Shown here in pieces: positions 7,316 to 20,576 of a stretch of 64,000 bases of DNA. The notes beneath the pieces were generated by a model. It ran no database searches, was not told where the DNA came from, and was given only the letters and a program-made list of their open reading frames with translations. Each line of letters starts with the position of its first letter. Positions within the stretch are counted from its first letter, which is position 1. The DNA is taken from NCBI RefSeq assembly GCF_900141715.1, contig NZ_FQYK01000003.1, forward strand, positions 227,847-291,846, written 5' to 3'. The stretch comes from Algibacter luteus (GTDB lineage: Bacteria > Bacteroidota > Bacteroidia > Flavobacteriales > Flavobacteriaceae). The translations under genes were made by a program, and so were the position numbers.

Positions 7316-7993
7316 TTATTCTTTTAATATATTAATTTTCCCACCTAAAACTCTACTTTCATCAATTTGTTCTGGATTACCATAAATATATATATTTCCA
7401 CCAGCGCGCACTTTTGCAACTACTTTTTTACTAGCATTGATATTCGCATTTCCTGCAATCCTTATTGATACCTCCGATGTTTTAGTTTTTAAACCCTTCC
7501 CATCGTAATCGCCACCCGTGTAGATTGAAACGTCTTGGTTAACAGCAATCCCTGAAGTTATAATATTAGCTCCAGTTACAGCTCTTACATTAACATATTT
7601 CGTGTCTATTTTTACATCAATTTTTCCGCCTTCTTGTGCGTTTAAATCGATTTCGAATTGTTTTATAACATCTTTTGAATGAATATAAGCGCCTTCATTA
7701 GCATCAAGAATATCAAAAGATGTGTAATAAAGTTTCACTTTTGTATTGTTACCATCAAAAGCTTCTTCTAGTTTCATTTTTATTTTTAGTGTGCCATTTT
7801 TATTGTTCACTAAAACATCTTCAGTATTTTTTCCAGTAATGATTACTTTGTTTACATCTGCTTTTATAAGCTCCACTTCAATGAGATCGTAAACTTTTAA
7901 TTCGCTAAATTCTCCAATTTCCTTTTCGATTGGATGTTGTGCAAAACAAGTGATTGATATAAAAAGTACTAGAATATGAGCTAAGGTTTTCAT
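7316..7993 (-). CDS. Secreted GIN-domain (DUF2807) protein
   Basis: This 225-residue protein starts with a clear signal peptide (MKTLAHILVLFISITCFAQ). The rest matches the putative auto-transporter adhesin head GIN pattern: an opening IGEFSELKVYDLIEVEL, a repetitive beta-helix of short strands (GAYIHSKDV, GGKIDVKID, GANIITSGI, GGDYDGKGL), and an ending with GGNIYIYGNPE. Such proteins are exported single-domain beta-helices common in Bacteroidota. Their biochemical role is unknown. It lies 98 bp upstream of the regulator gene on the same strand and 80 bp downstream of the broken ybjQ gene. It could belong to either unit. Confidence 0.85.
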   Translation of the reverse strand: MKTLAHILVLFISITCFAQHPIEKEIGEFSELKVYDLIEVELIKADVNKVIITGKNTEDVLVNNKNGTLKIKMKLEEAFDGNNTKVKLYYTSFDILDANEGAYIHSKDVIKQFEIDLNAQEGGKIDVKIDTKYVNVRAVTGANIITSGIAVNQDVSIYTGGDYDGKGLKTKTSEVSIRIAGNANINASKKVVAKVRAGGNIYIYGNPEQIDESRVLGGKINILKE

Positions 7994-8073
7994 TAAATAT
8001 ATTTTTCAATTACAACGTAAAACTATCAAGATTTATTCCTTTAGCTATTTACTTTATGAAAAGATTAAGAATG

Positions 8074-8366
8074 TTAAACAACTTTTACAGCAGTACCTGT
8101 TACAGAAACAAAAAAATAAGAGCCCGCTTCGGTTTCCATATCTAATTGAATTCCAACAATAGCATTGGCTTTTAAATTTATAGCATTTGCTTTTAAATTT
8201 TGAAAAGCCTCTTCTTTAGCTTTATAATAATATCTGAAATCATATTCATATTCTTTTCAGTTTTGAATGAAAATGACGTCTTGATATTACTTGAAACTCC
8301 TGTAACTATACCTAAATAATTCTCTATTTTATGTCCTTCAATAGAGTTTGTTGTAGTTAGAATCAT
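8074..8366 (-). pseudogene. YbjQ/UPF0145 family protein, single-base frameshift
   Basis: The ATG at 8366 opens MILTTTNSIEGHKIENYLGI, the start typical of YbjQ (UPF0145, heavy-metal-binding DUF74 fold, a pentamer-forming domain of unclear function). After residue K38 the frame runs into a wrong ending. The other frame continues with KEYEYDFRYYYKAKEEAF, then ANAIVGIQLDME and FVSVTGTAVKVV, and stops at 8074, which is the expected YbjQ C-terminus. Adding one base to the T run at 8254-8257 (A run in the mRNA) would restore an intact 97-residue protein. It is either a real frameshift or a homopolymer sequencing error. It lies 43 bp downstream of RNase R on the same strand. Confidence 0.85.
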
Positions 8367-8409
8367 TGTTAAACCAATTTTTAATAAGAGTAAAAACAAT
8401 TAGTTATTC

Positions 8410-10605
8410 TTACTCTGGTTTACCTAATAAATTAAAATCTAAGTGTTTTTTAACTAAGTCTGTATTTTTAACTTTTACAATAACTTCATCACCTAATTGA
8501 TATGTCATACCTGATTTTCTGCCAACCATAGCGTATTGGTCTTGATCGAATGCATAATGGTCGTCTTTCATATCACGAACACTGACCATACCTTCGCATT
8601 TATTTGAAATTATTTCAACATAAATTCCCCAGTCGGTTACTCCCGAAATAACGCCAACAAATTCTTCATCTTTATGATCTTCCATAAAACGAATTTGCAT
8701 ATATTTTATAGAATCGCGTTCGGCTTTAGTAGCTAAATTTTCCATATTACTGGAATGCTGGCATTTTTCTTCATAAACCTCTTCATTTACAGATTTTCCA
8801 CCATCTAAATAATGTTGTAGTAAGCGATGTGCCATAACATCTGGATATCGACGAATAGGTGAAGTGAAATGACTATAATAATTAAAAGCTAAACCATAAT
8901 GCCCAATATTATGAGTTGTGTATTCAGCTTTACTCATACTTCTTATAGTAAGTGTATCTACCAAATTCTGCTCTTTTTTTCCAACCACTTCTTGTAATAA
9001 ATTATTTAAAGAAGCTGTTGTACTTTTTCGGTCTTTAAAATTTAGTTTATATCCAAAACGACCTACCACATTCTGCAAAGCGGCTAATTTACTATCGTCT
9101 GGTTCGTCATGCACACGGTATACAAAGGTTTTTTTTGGTGATTGTTTTCCAATAAATTCTGATACTTTTCTGTTTGCCAACAACATAAATTCTTCAATAA
9201 GTTTATTAGCATCTTTACTGGTTTTAAAAAATACACCTTCAGGATTATTATTGTCATCTAAATTGAATTTCACTTCAACCTTATCAAAAGAAATGGCTCC
9301 ATTTCGCATACGTTGAGCACGCATAATTTTAGCGAGTTCGTCCATTTTTAAAATAGCATCAGCTAATTTTTGATCGGTTTGATACGTTTTACCAGTTAAT
9401 GAAACATCTACTGGAATGGTATTGGTTTTACTTTCAATAACTGCCTGAGCTTCTTCATAAGCATAACGTGCATCACTATAGGTTACCGTTCTTCCAAACC
9501 ATTCGTTTTTTATTTCTGCTTTGTCATTAATTTGAAATACAGCTGAAAATGTATATTTTTCTTCATGCGGACGTAAAGAACAGGCATTGTTTGATAATAC
9601 TTCAGGAAGCATAGGCACAACTCTATCTACTAAATACACCGATGTAGCACGTTCGTAGGCTTCATCATCTAAAACAGTACCTTCTTCTAAATAATGCGAC
9701 ACATCGGCTATATGAATTCCTATTTCATATAAGCCATTATCTAAAACTTCAAATGATAAGGCATCATCAAAATCTTTAGCATCTTTCGGATCTATGGTAA
9801 AGGTTAAATCTTTACGCATATCGCGTCGTTTAGCAATTTCTTCTTTTGTAATAGAAGTATCTAATTGGTTTGCATAAGCTTCAACTTCATGAGGAAATTC
9901 ATGAGGTAAACCGTATTCCGCAAGTATGGCATGAATTTCTGTATTATGATCTCCAGGTTTCCCAAGAACTTGAATGACTCTTCCGTAAGGTGAATCTGCT
10001 TTTTCAGGCCAATCCTCAAGTGTTACTAAAACTTTATCACCATCTTCAGCCTTATTTATTTTATTAATTGGTACAAAAATATCTTTGTACATTTTATTAC
10101 TATCTGGTACTACAAAAGCAAAATTTTTATTTTCTATAATTTGAATTACACCAACATATTCAGATTTTGCTCGTTTTATAACATTAGTAATTTCACCTTC
10201 TAACTTACCACGTTTTCTGCGTTTGTAAGCATAAAATTCTACTTCATCACCATTTAAAGCTCTATTAATATTATTTGAAGCGATAAAAACATCGTCTTCA
10301 AAATCTTCGCAAATAACGTAACCGTTTCCTTTTGCAGCTAAATCTAAAATACCTGTATGATATTCTGTATTAATGATAGCTCTAAACTTACCACGTTCAA
10401 CTTCTTCTATTTCTTTCTGAACAGCTAGTTTAGCTAGAGTTTTTATAATTTGATTTCTACTACTAGCATCATTTACACCGAGTTTAGCAGCAATTTGTTT
10501 ATAATTAAAACTTTGATTTCTTTCTTTTTTTAAAATACTTAAGATTGTATTTGTAAGGTTGGAAATTCCTTTATTCTTGGATTTCCCTTTTCTTTTTCTT
10601 GTCAT
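8410..10605 (-). CDS. rnr: Ribonuclease R
   Basis: This is a 731-residue RNase II/R family 3'-5' exoribonuclease. A lysine-rich N-terminus and a winged-helix region (about 15-75, KQIAAKLGVNDASSRNQIIKTL) precede the cold-shock OB domains (about 85-215). The RNB catalytic domain carries IDPKDAKDFDDALS, with the metal-binding aspartates D272, D278, D280 and D281. A C-terminal S1 domain (EFVGVISGVTDWGIYVEI) and a short tail complete the usual architecture. It degrades structured RNA in the cytoplasm. The gene is divergent from rpiB across a 613-bp AT-rich gap. A candidate -7 element CAAAGCTA (minus TAGCTTTG) lies at 10697-10704, and a 6-bp hairpin (10629-10642) falls in the leader. Confidence 0.97.
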   Translation of the reverse strand: MTRKRKGKSKNKGISNLTNTILSILKKERNQSFNYKQIAAKLGVNDASSRNQIIKTLAKLAVQKEIEEVERGKFRAIINTEYHTGILDLAAKGNGYVICEDFEDDVFIASNNINRALNGDEVEFYAYKRRKRGKLEGEITNVIKRAKSEYVGVIQIIENKNFAFVVPDSNKMYKDIFVPINKINKAEDGDKVLVTLEDWPEKADSPYGRVIQVLGKPGDHNTEIHAILAEYGLPHEFPHEVEAYANQLDTSITKEEIAKRRDMRKDLTFTIDPKDAKDFDDALSFEVLDNGLYEIGIHIADVSHYLEEGTVLDDEAYERATSVYLVDRVVPMLPEVLSNNACSLRPHEEKYTFSAVFQINDKAEIKNEWFGRTVTYSDARYAYEEAQAVIESKTNTIPVDVSLTGKTYQTDQKLADAILKMDELAKIMRAQRMRNGAISFDKVEVKFNLDDNNNPEGVFFKTSKDANKLIEEFMLLANRKVSEFIGKQSPKKTFVYRVHDEPDDSKLAALQNVVGRFGYKLNFKDRKSTTASLNNLLQEVVGKKEQNLVDTLTIRSMSKAEYTTHNIGHYGLAFNYYSHFTSPIRRYPDVMAHRLLQHYLDGGKSVNEEVYEEKCQHSSNMENLATKAERDSIKYMQIRFMEDHKDEEFVGVISGVTDWGIYVEIISNKCEGMVSVRDMKDDHYAFDQDQYAMVGRKSGMTYQLGDEVIVKVKNTDLVKKHLDFNLLGKPE

Positions 10606-17533: not shown

Positions 17534-19393
17534 ATGGGAGATTTAAGTGTTACAAAACTAAATACTAAAAAAGATAGAGCTAATTATATCCATCATTTGA
17601 TAAATGATATAGAAGCCCTAGACCTCATGATTGAAAACAACATGATTGAAGAAGGCCCAATTAGAATCGGAGCAGAACAAGAATTTTGTTTAGTTAATAA
17701 TCAGTTTTTACCAGAGAGTAATTCTTTGGAGATTTTAGAAGAAATTAACGACGAGCATTTTACAACCGAAATTGGGAATTATAACCTAGAACTAAACTTA
17801 GACCCTTTAATTCTAGTAGGAGATTGTTTTTCAAAATTACACAAACAATTAAATAGCTATTTAAAAAAGGCTAAAGATGTTGTGGCTAAGAACGATGGTA
17901 AAATTATTCTAACCGGCATTTTACCATCCTTATCAGTTAATAATGTTGGCGAAGATAACATGACCAATGTTGAACGATATTCCGTTTTAAATGATGCCAT
18001 TAAATCAAGTAGAAGAACAAGTTTCGATATTCACATCAAAGGTGTAGATGAGCTTAATCTATTACACGATTCTGTAATGCTAGAAGGCTGTAATACCAGT
18101 TTTCAAATGCATTTGCAGTTTGCTGCTAAAAATTTTGTAGATAATTATAATTGGGCACAAGCCATTGCTGGACCTGTTTTAAGTGTTTGTACAAATTCAC
18201 CTTTATTATTTGGAAAAGAATTATGGAGCGAAACTAGAATTGCACTTTTTACACAAAGCATAGATACCAGAGCAAATTCGTATTTATTAAATGACAAACC
18301 TTCTAGAGTAAGTTTCGGAACCGATTGGGAACGCGGCTCAATAACCGATATTTTTAAAAATAATATAGCCCGATTTAGGAGTTTTTTAACCACGCATTTT
18401 ATTCGAAACAGTGTAGATATGCTAAAAAACAACGAAATCCCAAAGCTAAAAGCTTTGCAATTGCATAATGGTACCGTTTACCCCTGGAACAGAGTCTGTT
18501 ATGGTTTAACCAACGGAAAACCTCATTTACGAATTGAAAACAGATACATACCTTCTGGACCAACAACCGTTGATGAAATTGCAAACATGATGTTTTGGGT
18601 AGGTGTCATGTTAGGAAAACCAAAAGCTTACAATAATATTAGCGATAAATGGGATTTTAAAGATGTAAAAACTAACTTTTTTAGCGCTGCAAGATACGGT
18701 ATGTCCACCCAGTTTTATTGGAATGGGAAATACATTTCAAGCCATGAACTTATTTTAAACGAACTTTTACCAATGGCATATAAAGGCTTGTATAAAATGG
18801 GAATTTCTCCAAAAGATGCCGAGTATTACTTAAAAATTATTAATGATAGAGTTATAGGTTATAACGGATCAGAATGGATGGTTAGAAATTACAGGTACCT
18901 TCTAAAAAGCCATAAGCGGTATGAGTCTATGCAAATACTAACAGCAAATATTTATGATAAACAAGAAAAAGGTTTTCCTGTTTCGGTATGGGATATGCTG
19001 CATCATCAAAACGAATCAATCTTAAAAACTAAATATGTGGCGAAACATATTTTAAGTTCGGATATATTTTCAGTAGATAAAAAAGACAGTATCGATTTGG
19101 TATTGCATATCATGAAATGGAAAAACATTCACCACATGCCTGTTATTAATGGGGATAGAGATCTGTTAGGTTTGATAACTTGGAATGACGTTGAAAGCTA
19201 TATCGATCAGCGCGATGAAAAACATAATAGTGTCTCAAAATTAATGAAAACCGATTTAATCACTGTTGAGGAATACACACCTTATGAAACGGTTATAAAA
19301 TTATTAAAAACACATGCAATTGGTTGTTTGCCCGTTGTAAAAAACAAAAAGCTTATTGGTTTAATAACCTCAAACGACTTATTGCATGATTGA
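17534..19393 (+). CDS. GCS2-type carboxylate-amine ligase fused to a CBS-domain pair
   Basis: This 619-residue protein has two parts. Residues about 38-490 show the glutamate-cysteine ligase type 2 (YbdK-like) fold: IRIGAEQEF with E48 and E50, NLELNLDP, NTSFQMHLQF (187-196), GTVYPWNRVCYG, and HLRIENRYIPSGPT (331-344). Residues about 502-619 are two CBS motifs (HILSSDIFSVDKKDSIDLVLHIM..., LMKTDLITVEEYTPYETVIKLL...GLITSNDLL), which normally bind adenine nucleotides and regulate a partner domain. The likely reaction is ATP-dependent amide-bond formation between a carboxylate and an amine. The substrates are unknown. The next gene, a putative amide hydrolase, overlaps it by 8 bp. Confidence 0.85.
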   Translation: MGDLSVTKLNTKKDRANYIHHLINDIEALDLMIENNMIEEGPIRIGAEQEFCLVNNQFLPESNSLEILEEINDEHFTTEIGNYNLELNLDPLILVGDCFSKLHKQLNSYLKKAKDVVAKNDGKIILTGILPSLSVNNVGEDNMTNVERYSVLNDAIKSSRRTSFDIHIKGVDELNLLHDSVMLEGCNTSFQMHLQFAAKNFVDNYNWAQAIAGPVLSVCTNSPLLFGKELWSETRIALFTQSIDTRANSYLLNDKPSRVSFGTDWERGSITDIFKNNIARFRSFLTTHFIRNSVDMLKNNEIPKLKALQLHNGTVYPWNRVCYGLTNGKPHLRIENRYIPSGPTTVDEIANMMFWVGVMLGKPKAYNNISDKWDFKDVKTNFFSAARYGMSTQFYWNGKYISSHELILNELLPMAYKGLYKMGISPKDAEYYLKIINDRVIGYNGSEWMVRNYRYLLKSHKRYESMQILTANIYDKQEKGFPVSVWDMLHHQNESILKTKYVAKHILSSDIFSVDKKDSIDLVLHIMKWKNIHHMPVINGDRDLLGLITWNDVESYIDQRDEKHNSVSKLMKTDLITVEEYTPYETVIKLLKTHAIGCLPVVKNKKLIGLITSNDLLHD

Positions 19394-20576
19394 TGTATAC
19401 AACAAGGCACTAAATAGTAGTTTAAAAATTAACAGAATACTTGGTAAAATAGAAGGTACAAAACCTGGTCCGACGGTTATTTTTTTTGGCGGTATTCATG
19501 GTAATGAAACTTCTGGAGTGTTTGCTCTAAAAGATGCTTTAGCAGGAATAAATAATACCTATGTATCTGGTACTATTTACGGTATCTCGGGAAGTTTAAC
19601 CGCTTTAAAAGCGCATAAACGTTATATTGAAGACGATTTAAATAGGCTTTGGACTAAGCAGCAAATTCAAAACATTTTAAGTAAAGCTCATGTAAATGAA
19701 GACGAAGCTGAATTAGTTGAGCTCAACACCATTTTAAATGAAATTTTAGAAAAACATAAACCGCCATTTTATTTTGTTGATTTGCACACAACATCCAGTA
19801 AAACCTTGCCTTTTATTACAATAAATGATGCCTTAATAAACAGAAAGTTTTCAGAGCAATTTCCAGTACCTATAGTTTTAGGTATAGAAGAGTATTTAAA
19901 TGGTCCGTTATTGAGTTATATAAACCAGTTAGGTTATGTGTCTTTAGGTTTTGAATCTGGGCAACATGACGATTTTGTTGCCATTACCAATAGTATTGCA
20001 TTTGTGTATTTAACCCTAGTGTATTCAGGTGTTTTAAAACAAGAAGCGGTTATTAATTTTTCAAAATATTACGAGCAACTAAAGCAACAATCTAACAATA
20101 CAAAGCAGGTATTTGAAGTGGTGTATTTACATAAAATTCAAAAAAACGAACGCTTTAAAATGCTTAATGGTTTTAAAAGTTTCGAAACTGTTAAAAAAGG
20201 AACGCTACTAGCCATAAGCAACACTAAAGAAATTGAATCTCGTTACAACGGTAATATTTTTATGCCACTTTACCAACAAAAAGGCGCCGAAGGTTTTTTT
20301 ATCATTAAACCCATAAAACCGTTTTTTCTAAAATTATCCACTGTATTAAGACGTATAAAAACCGATAGTTTTTTAGCCTTTTTACCTGGAATTTCTTGGG
20401 CAAATAAAAACGAAGGCATTTTACAAGTTGATTTGAAAGTTGCACGGTATTTTGCTAAACCATTATTTCATTTATTAGGTTACAGAAATAGGCAAATTAC
20501 AAGAACTCATATAAGATTAAACAATAGAGAGCGTGTTGCAAAAACTAAAATTTACAGAAAAGCGCCTTGGTATTAA
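19386..20576 (+). CDS. Succinylglutamate desuccinylase/aspartoacylase family hydrolase
   Basis: This 396-residue protein starts inside the last codons of the ligase gene (8-bp overlap), which implies translational coupling. The N-terminal half has the M14-like zinc site of the AstE/AspA family: FFGGIHGNETSG (H38, E41), EDDLNRLW (82-89, substrate-binding arginine R87), YFVDLHTTSS (H134), and GFESGQHD with the probable general base E190. Such enzymes hydrolyse N-acyl amino acids or related amides. The C-terminal part (about 210-396) is less typical and rich in basic residues. The pairing suggests that it cleaves the product, or a relative of the product, of the upstream ligase. This is inference. 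Confidence 0.85.
   Translation: MIDVYNKALNSSLKINRILGKIEGTKPGPTVIFFGGIHGNETSGVFALKDALAGINNTYVSGTIYGISGSLTALKAHKRYIEDDLNRLWTKQQIQNILSKAHVNEDEAELVELNTILNEILEKHKPPFYFVDLHTTSSKTLPFITINDALINRKFSEQFPVPIVLGIEEYLNGPLLSYINQLGYVSLGFESGQHDDFVAITNSIAFVYLTLVYSGVLKQEAVINFSKYYEQLKQQSNNTKQVFEVVYLHKIQKNERFKMLNGFKSFETVKKGTLLAISNTKEIESRYNGNIFMPLYQQKGAEGFFIIKPIKPFFLKLSTVLRRIKTDSFLAFLPGISWANKNEGILQVDLKVARYFAKPLFHLLGYRNRQITRTHIRLNNRERVAKTKIYRKAPWY

Follow-up and report, generated by a model that had tools for sequence, protein, structure and literature searches.

The window analyzed here is a stretch of 64,000 nucleotides from Algibacter luteus (contig NZ_FQYK01000003.1, positions 227,847 to 291,846). On its forward strand it carries two overlapping open reading frames (ORFs), a predicted ligase gene at 17534-19393 (619 amino acids) and a predicted hydrolase gene at 19386-20576 (396 amino acids), exactly where an earlier interpretation of the letters alone (the sequence-only reading) had placed them. 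The ligase is predicted to consist of a GCS-fold catalytic domain followed by a pair of CBS domains, and the hydrolase resembles the AstE/AspA zinc enzymes (Table 1). The stop of the ligase gene and the start of the hydrolase gene share the 8 bp described by the sequence-only reading, an arrangement that suggests translational coupling of the two genes. Its further claim, that the two proteins are made in a fixed ratio, found no support. A promoter scan of the region returned 12 sites against a shuffle mean of 15.1; there is no excess, and the scan is uninformative for this phylum.

Table 1. Coordinates in the window of the predicted ligase-hydrolase pair and its parts
Feature	Position	Strand	Basis
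Predicted GCS-fold carboxylate-amine ligase domain, residues 1-488	17534-18997	+	AlphaFold2 model; VIA-align; GCS2 matches in relatives; conserved residues
Bateman domain (CBS pair), residues 501-619, AcuB-like	19034-19390	+	PF00571, E 7.6e-21; AcuB, E 6.6e-15, Z about 19; D552, D615, I532, H534
8-bp ligase/hydrolase overlap	19386-19393	+	ORF coordinates; gaps in 78 measured relatives
AstE/AspA-type zinc amidohydrolase, 396 amino acids	19386-20576	+	PF24827, E 2.3e-17; AlphaFold2 model; Foldseek to AstE 1yw6, DoeB, CphZ, ASPA
Hydrolase C-terminal extension, about residues 312-396	20319-20573	+	Matched ranges and form lengths; beyond the Pfam match

Predicted enzymes and their domains

The window ligase has no match to the GCS2 family (PF04107) in Pfam; besides its CBS domains, it gives a single below-cut-off match to a phage domain. 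A search of the PDB with a sequence profile of the protein gave, among the best 60 of 120 matches, only matches to the CBS region and no GCS-like domain. The catalytic fold emerges from an AlphaFold2 model computed from 66 aligned sequences, those of the window and of related loci (mean pLDDT 87.4, with residues 234-249 under 50). The best Foldseek matches to the catalytic part of this model are a plant glutamate-cysteine ligase (GCL; E 6.4e-12) and YbdK (4.3e-11). Structural alignment with VIA-align gave a Z of 33.8 between residues 29-478 and 1tt4 (343 residues, 2.6 A) and of 33.3 between residues 25-478 and YbdK, followed by plant GCL (29.6), yeast GCL (26.6), GshA (about 20) and the depupylase Dop (about 18). 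Eight of ten relatives scanned pass the PF04107 cut-off of 21 bits (L122, L123, L132, L133, L134, L119, L120 and L115). Of these, two are CBS-less and come from green sulfur bacteria, three are actinobacterial and three are CBS-fused; the CBS-fused L126 and the haloarchaeal L136 fall short of it. By its model and its relatives, the catalytic part is a predicted GCS-fold carboxylate-amine ligase domain, in keeping with the sequence-only reading.

Residues E48, E50, E86, H193, R333, E335 and R337 of the ligase are kept in CBS-fused ligases as well as in relatives from Chlorobi, actinobacteria and archaea. In an alignment of 155 rows (147 distinct), counting the rows with a letter at each position, E48 and E50 are found in 147/147, E86 in 146/147, H193 in 155/155 and R333, E335 and R337 in 154/154. 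From GCL structures, these positions are presumed to be the metal, ATP and glutamate sites of the enzyme. The window ligase shares with the YbdK/GCS2 family, including EgtA and plant GCL, both its fold (residues 25-478) and the positions E48xE50, H193 and R333xE335xR337. It differs from the family in its low identity to 1tt4, YbdK and plant GCL (12-17%), in its C-terminal CBS pair and in a conserved LHNGTxxxWNR segment of its own. An assignment as glutamate-cysteine ligase or EgtA proper was rejected: relatives from actinobacteria and green sulfur bacteria score far below the cut-offs of the EgtA and YbdK-type NCBIfam models (17-31 bits for L132 and L122, against cut-offs of 176-371), and no EgtA or glutamate-cysteine ligase equivalog appears among the NCBIfam matches listed for the window ligase (25 of 26).

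The C-terminus of the ligase matches PF00571 in two stretches. By sequence, the nearest solved relatives of this CBS pair are MJ1225 (E 1.3e-16) and AcuB of Geobacillus (6.6e-15) and of Bacillus (1.1e-14), and its identity to AcuB is 30-35%. In Bacillus subtilis AcuB (PMC13121692), the ribose is held by Asp52 and Asp122, and His34 bridges the phosphates of the two nucleotides. H534 of the ligase aligns to His34, D552 to Asp52 (with a spacing of 18 in both proteins) and D615 to Asp122. Of 66 ligase sequences, 64 keep D552 and all keep D615; I532 and H534 are invariant in the same alignment. Because the ribose-binding Asp pair and the phosphate-bridging His of AcuB are kept, adenine-nucleotide binding by the ligase CBS pair is likely, in agreement with the nucleotide control that the sequence-only reading had suggested. 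The window protein resembles the energy-charge sensor of Bacillus and Geobacillus at its nucleotide-binding positions. It differs in that the CBS pair is fused to a ligase, compared with an ACT domain in AcuB (PMC13121692).

The hydrolase matches AstE_AspA_cat (PF24827) with 63.6 bits against a cut-off of 25. Its AlphaFold2 model (mean pLDDT 91.1) is matched by Foldseek to AstE (1yw6, E 5.3e-15) and also to DoeB, CphZ and ASPA. Both models agree with the enzyme types named by the sequence-only reading, GCS2-like for the ligase and AstE/AspA for the hydrolase. All 129 aligned rows (125 distinct sequences) have the residues it had singled out, H38, E41, H134 and E190, along with R79, D84 and N86, and 128 have R87. 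We presume from aspartoacylase that H38, E41, H134 and E190 are the HxxE...H zinc ligands and the catalytic Glu. While the window hydrolase shares fold and zinc and catalytic residues with AstE, aspartoacylase, DoeB and CphZ, it falls below the NCBIfam equivalog cut-offs for succinylglutamate desuccinylase and aspartoacylase (50.4 against 180, 44.2 against 170 and 36.7 against 305.65 bits), it is paired with a GCS-fold ligase, and it belongs to a long form with an extra C-terminal segment of about 85 amino acids. Long-form proteins have 383-433 amino acids; the short form, without the extension, has 303-329, one short-form row being longer owing to a distant first start. Within the extension R381, E382 and Y390 are invariant and W395 is nearly so. 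Perhaps it makes contact with the ligase.

Occurrence of the pair in Bacteroidota

The hydrolase adjoins the ligase in 79 of 80 loci from the searched genome contigs, far above chance. The exception is a Mariniflexile locus (L051) with a ligase and no hydrolase found beside it. The gap between the two genes ranges from -61 to +17 nt in 78 measured loci; one of the 79, L074, was left out of this measure since a contig end cuts it. Also included in the 80 is L095, where the hydrolase reading frame (7843-9033) is split in two pieces.

Of 395 Bacteroidota genomes, 93 carry a CBS-fused ligase and 59 carry the hydrolase. The two occur together in 56 genomes, the ligase alone in 37, the hydrolase alone in 3 and neither in 299 (Fisher p 4.5e-39, uncorrected for relatedness; as the genomes are related, it is not a test of independent events). 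The table was compiled by hand from genome-wide match tables, with thresholds of E 1e-70 or better for the CBS-fused ligase and 1e-50 or better for the hydrolase, chosen after the gap in E-values had been seen. A genome whose ligase match is in two pieces (G293) is counted among the 93, and 23 genomes of family f18, in which the ligase is CBS-less, are counted as having neither. In 51 of the 56 genomes with the two genes, the hydrolase follows immediately downstream of the ligase. The remaining five, all from family f5, carry the two genes apart, on different contigs in four and at a distance of 66 kb in one. The sequence-only reading had called the fusion of GCS and CBS domains unusual. Within this phylum we reject the idea that it is rare, as 93 of 395 genomes carry it; the fusion is unusual at most outside Bacteroidota.

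Adjacent pairs occur in the Bacteroidota families f1, f8 and f24. Many of the loci read also share the order of genes further out from the pair, for example two upstream genes found in 64 loci each. The f24 loci read (L112, L113 and L125) have the pair amid flanking genes that differ from those of the window, and therefore shared synteny alone does not explain the pairing. In these three loci, which belong to genus g96, the CBS-fused ligase is duplicated in tandem upstream of a single hydrolase. Genome G321 has three ligase copies and two hydrolases, its distant third ligase having a hydrolase of its own.

Other ligase-hydrolase combinations

In the three genomes with the hydrolase only (L137-L139), it adjoins a different kind of ligase, an ATP-grasp protein of the glutathione-synthetase type (PF02955; E 1.2e-50, 1.2e-52 and 1.7e-49), with a MATCAP metallopeptidase (PF08014) close by. 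MATCAP matches were found in 19 of the 395 genomes. Eight of the 16 other MATCAP clusters were read (L162-L169); all eight contain an N-formylglutamate amidohydrolase, and L137-L139 contain none. The profile used for this enzyme was built from L001 and seven of the loci L162-L169, the seven being confirmed by Pfam, and L168, which lay outside the profile, matched it at 6.7e-79. The AstE-type hydrolase thus stands in the place of the N-formylglutamate amidohydrolase beside a glutathione-synthetase-type ligase, an apparent swap of partners.

The genome of A. luteus itself has two further clusters of this general kind. One (L149 4769-8125, also seen as L001) consists of an RLAN/RimK-type ATP-grasp gene, a GCS2 gene (E 2.2e-25) and an N-formylglutamate amidohydrolase gene; of 60 genomes searched for this GCS2 gene, 4 gave a strong match, that of A. 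luteus among them, and a fifth gave a weak one. The other (L169 4449-8701) encodes a MATCAP peptidase, an N-formylglutamate amidohydrolase and a glutathione-synthetase-like ATP-grasp protein.

A parallel pairing is found in family f18, whose ligase is CBS-less and strongly matched in 23 genomes. The FMO protein, detected in 3 of 3 f18 genomes tested and in 0 of 9 others, marks f18 as green sulfur bacteria. The hydrolase profile finds an AstE-type match in 18 of the 23. In all ten f18 loci read, the ligase gene and a divergent AstE-type gene overlap; the shared stretch is 13 bp long in five loci and 109 bp long in the other five, taking the first start codon. Because the f18 hydrolase sits on a very long branch of the hydrolase tree (4.9 changes per column), this pairing may either have been inherited from a common ancestor or have arisen twice. 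Taken with the adjacency in Bacteroidota and the swap in L137-L139, it makes the hydrolase look functionally tied to amide ligases.

Still remoter AstE-type genes were examined in 24 loci, hand-picked from the weak hydrolase-profile matches listed. A RimK-type ligase stands beside 12 of them, one of which (L183) also holds a zinc protease (PF05618). The RimK profile came from three of the 12 (L145, L147 and L148), and these three also match an independent profile of the glutathione-synthetase type. In L170 (1004-2431), L173 (2949-4373) and L174 (2910-4334), an ORF of 474-475 amino acids overlaps the AstE-type gene by one base. Two of these ORFs, from L170 and L173, were scanned; neither matches any Pfam family, and both resemble ATP-grasp proteins (RimK or D-Ala ligase) weakly.

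Possible roles of the pair

The account we favor, to which we give slightly less than an even chance, is that the two genes form a make-and-break unit controlling one amide-linked metabolite. The GCS-fold ligase would use ATP to activate a carboxyl group on a side chain (the gamma-carboxyl of glutamate being the likeliest) and join it to an amine. The AcuB-like CBS pair would bind adenine nucleotides and thereby tie synthesis to energy charge. A zinc amidohydrolase of the AstE/AspA/CphZ kind would then hydrolyze the ligase product or a close derivative, and the two enzymes together would set the level of the metabolite. The computed basis of this account is the predicted folds, the conserved active-site residues, the gene pairing and the single case in which the hydrolase has moved to a ligase partner of another type; from these we infer the substrate, nucleotide binding and the direction of control, and the action of both enzymes on the same bond. 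The sequence-only reading had gone further. Its statement that the hydrolase breaks the bond made by the ligase is too strong, and no support was found for a gamma-glutamyl product.

Several observations weigh against a make-and-break unit. The conservation of the pair that the sequence-only reading expected across Bacteroidota holds for gene adjacency, but 37 of the 93 genomes with a CBS-fused ligase are without such a hydrolase, so the ligase can work alone, which speaks against obligate coupling. The three hydrolases with swapped partners form one clade (100/96) in a tree of a thinned set of 64 rows, and the swap may therefore be a single event. When profiles of the ligase and of the GCS2 protein encoded elsewhere in the genome (contig C7) were compared, the alignment was not significant, a result probably due to the small template of 4 sequences. 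Among the actinobacterial and haloarchaeal relatives of the ligase, neither the annotated neighborhoods nor the loci scanned (L132-L136) showed an AstE. Nine of the 24 remoter AstE-type loci have no match to the ligase profiles used, and a Pfam scan of the neighbors of six of these nine found no amide ligase of these kinds. The proposition that every AstE-type gene adjoins a ligase is accordingly rejected; with RimK beside 12 of the 24, pairing with a ligase is common in the hydrolase family and not universal.

The main rival is a linear pathway, in which the hydrolase strips a formyl, acetyl, succinyl or similar N-acyl group from an acidic amino acid and so feeds or finishes the ligase reaction, the two enzymes acting on different bonds. 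AstE, AspA and N-formylglutamate amidohydrolase are best known for acting on N-acyl derivatives of glutamate or aspartate, the AstE-type hydrolase occupies the place of N-formylglutamate amidohydrolase in the MATCAP/glutathione-synthetase-type clusters read, and the A. luteus genome has its own cluster of ATP-grasp, GCS2 and N-formylglutamate amidohydrolase genes. In such a pathway, however, the ligase-only genomes would be without the feeding step unless another enzyme serves. Moreover CphZ, which is of the same fold group as the window hydrolase, cleaves a side-chain isopeptide, according to a study (PMC10206079) that also describes the isoaspartyl dipeptidases for cyanophycin breakdown in Bacteroidota as remaining undiscovered. 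We regard the linear pathway as a real but minority possibility. A reversible modification of proteins or peptides, with the ligase coupling glutamate or an amine to a carboxyl or lysine of a protein and the hydrolase taking it off again, appears improbable. Pup ligase with Dop and RimK with RimB provide parallels, Dop does align to the ligase model, and AstE-type genes also lie beside RimK, in L183 together with a zinc protease, but YbdK and GCL align much better than Dop (Z 33.8 and 29.6).

It is also conceivable, and slightly more improbable still, that the genes are neighbors by descent, co-transcribed and serving unrelated pathways. The gene order conserved well beyond the pair and the ligase-only genomes would fit such an origin. 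Set against it are the persistence of the pair among different flanking genes in f24, the presence of both genes, though apart, in the five f5 genomes, the position of the hydrolase beside another ligase type where the CBS-fused ligase is absent, and the parallel pairing in green sulfur bacteria.

A gene-neighborhood network of amidoligases with peptidases and amidohydrolases was reportedly described by Iyer, Aravind and colleagues in Mol Biosyst in 2009, and the window pair resembles it in that non-ribosomal amide ligases cluster there with unrelated hydrolases. The rimABK operon, responsible for glutamylation of ribosomal protein S6, likewise combines a ligase with a partner hydrolase or protease, and AstE-type genes lie beside RimK in half of the remoter loci read; its ligase fold is different and the window locus has no RimK. 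A text search of the open-licence literature found no title naming the CBS-fused GCS and AstE pair and no substrate for it. We rate the pair as a new form of the already known ligase-amidohydrolase modules. More tentatively, and as something possible rather than probable, Bacteroidota may turn over amides with modular units built from interchangeable ligases (CBS-gated GCS, CBS-less GCS, or ATP-grasp of the glutathione-synthetase or RimK type) and interchangeable hydrolases (of the AstE or the N-formylglutamate-amidohydrolase type). The window unit would then be the energy-charge-gated version, making and breaking an undescribed gamma-glutamyl-type isopeptide that is perhaps a store, an osmolyte or a cofactor.

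Of the Bacteroidota genomes sampled, about one in seven (56 of 395) has both members of the pair. If the make-and-break account is true, these bacteria would have an unrecognized metabolite with a level that tracks the adenylate charge, and the two enzymes would be the means to find it. In addition, AstE-type and N-formylglutamate-amidohydrolase-type hydrolases seem to replace each other, which suggests a testable rule for the functions of other orphan ligase-hydrolase clusters.

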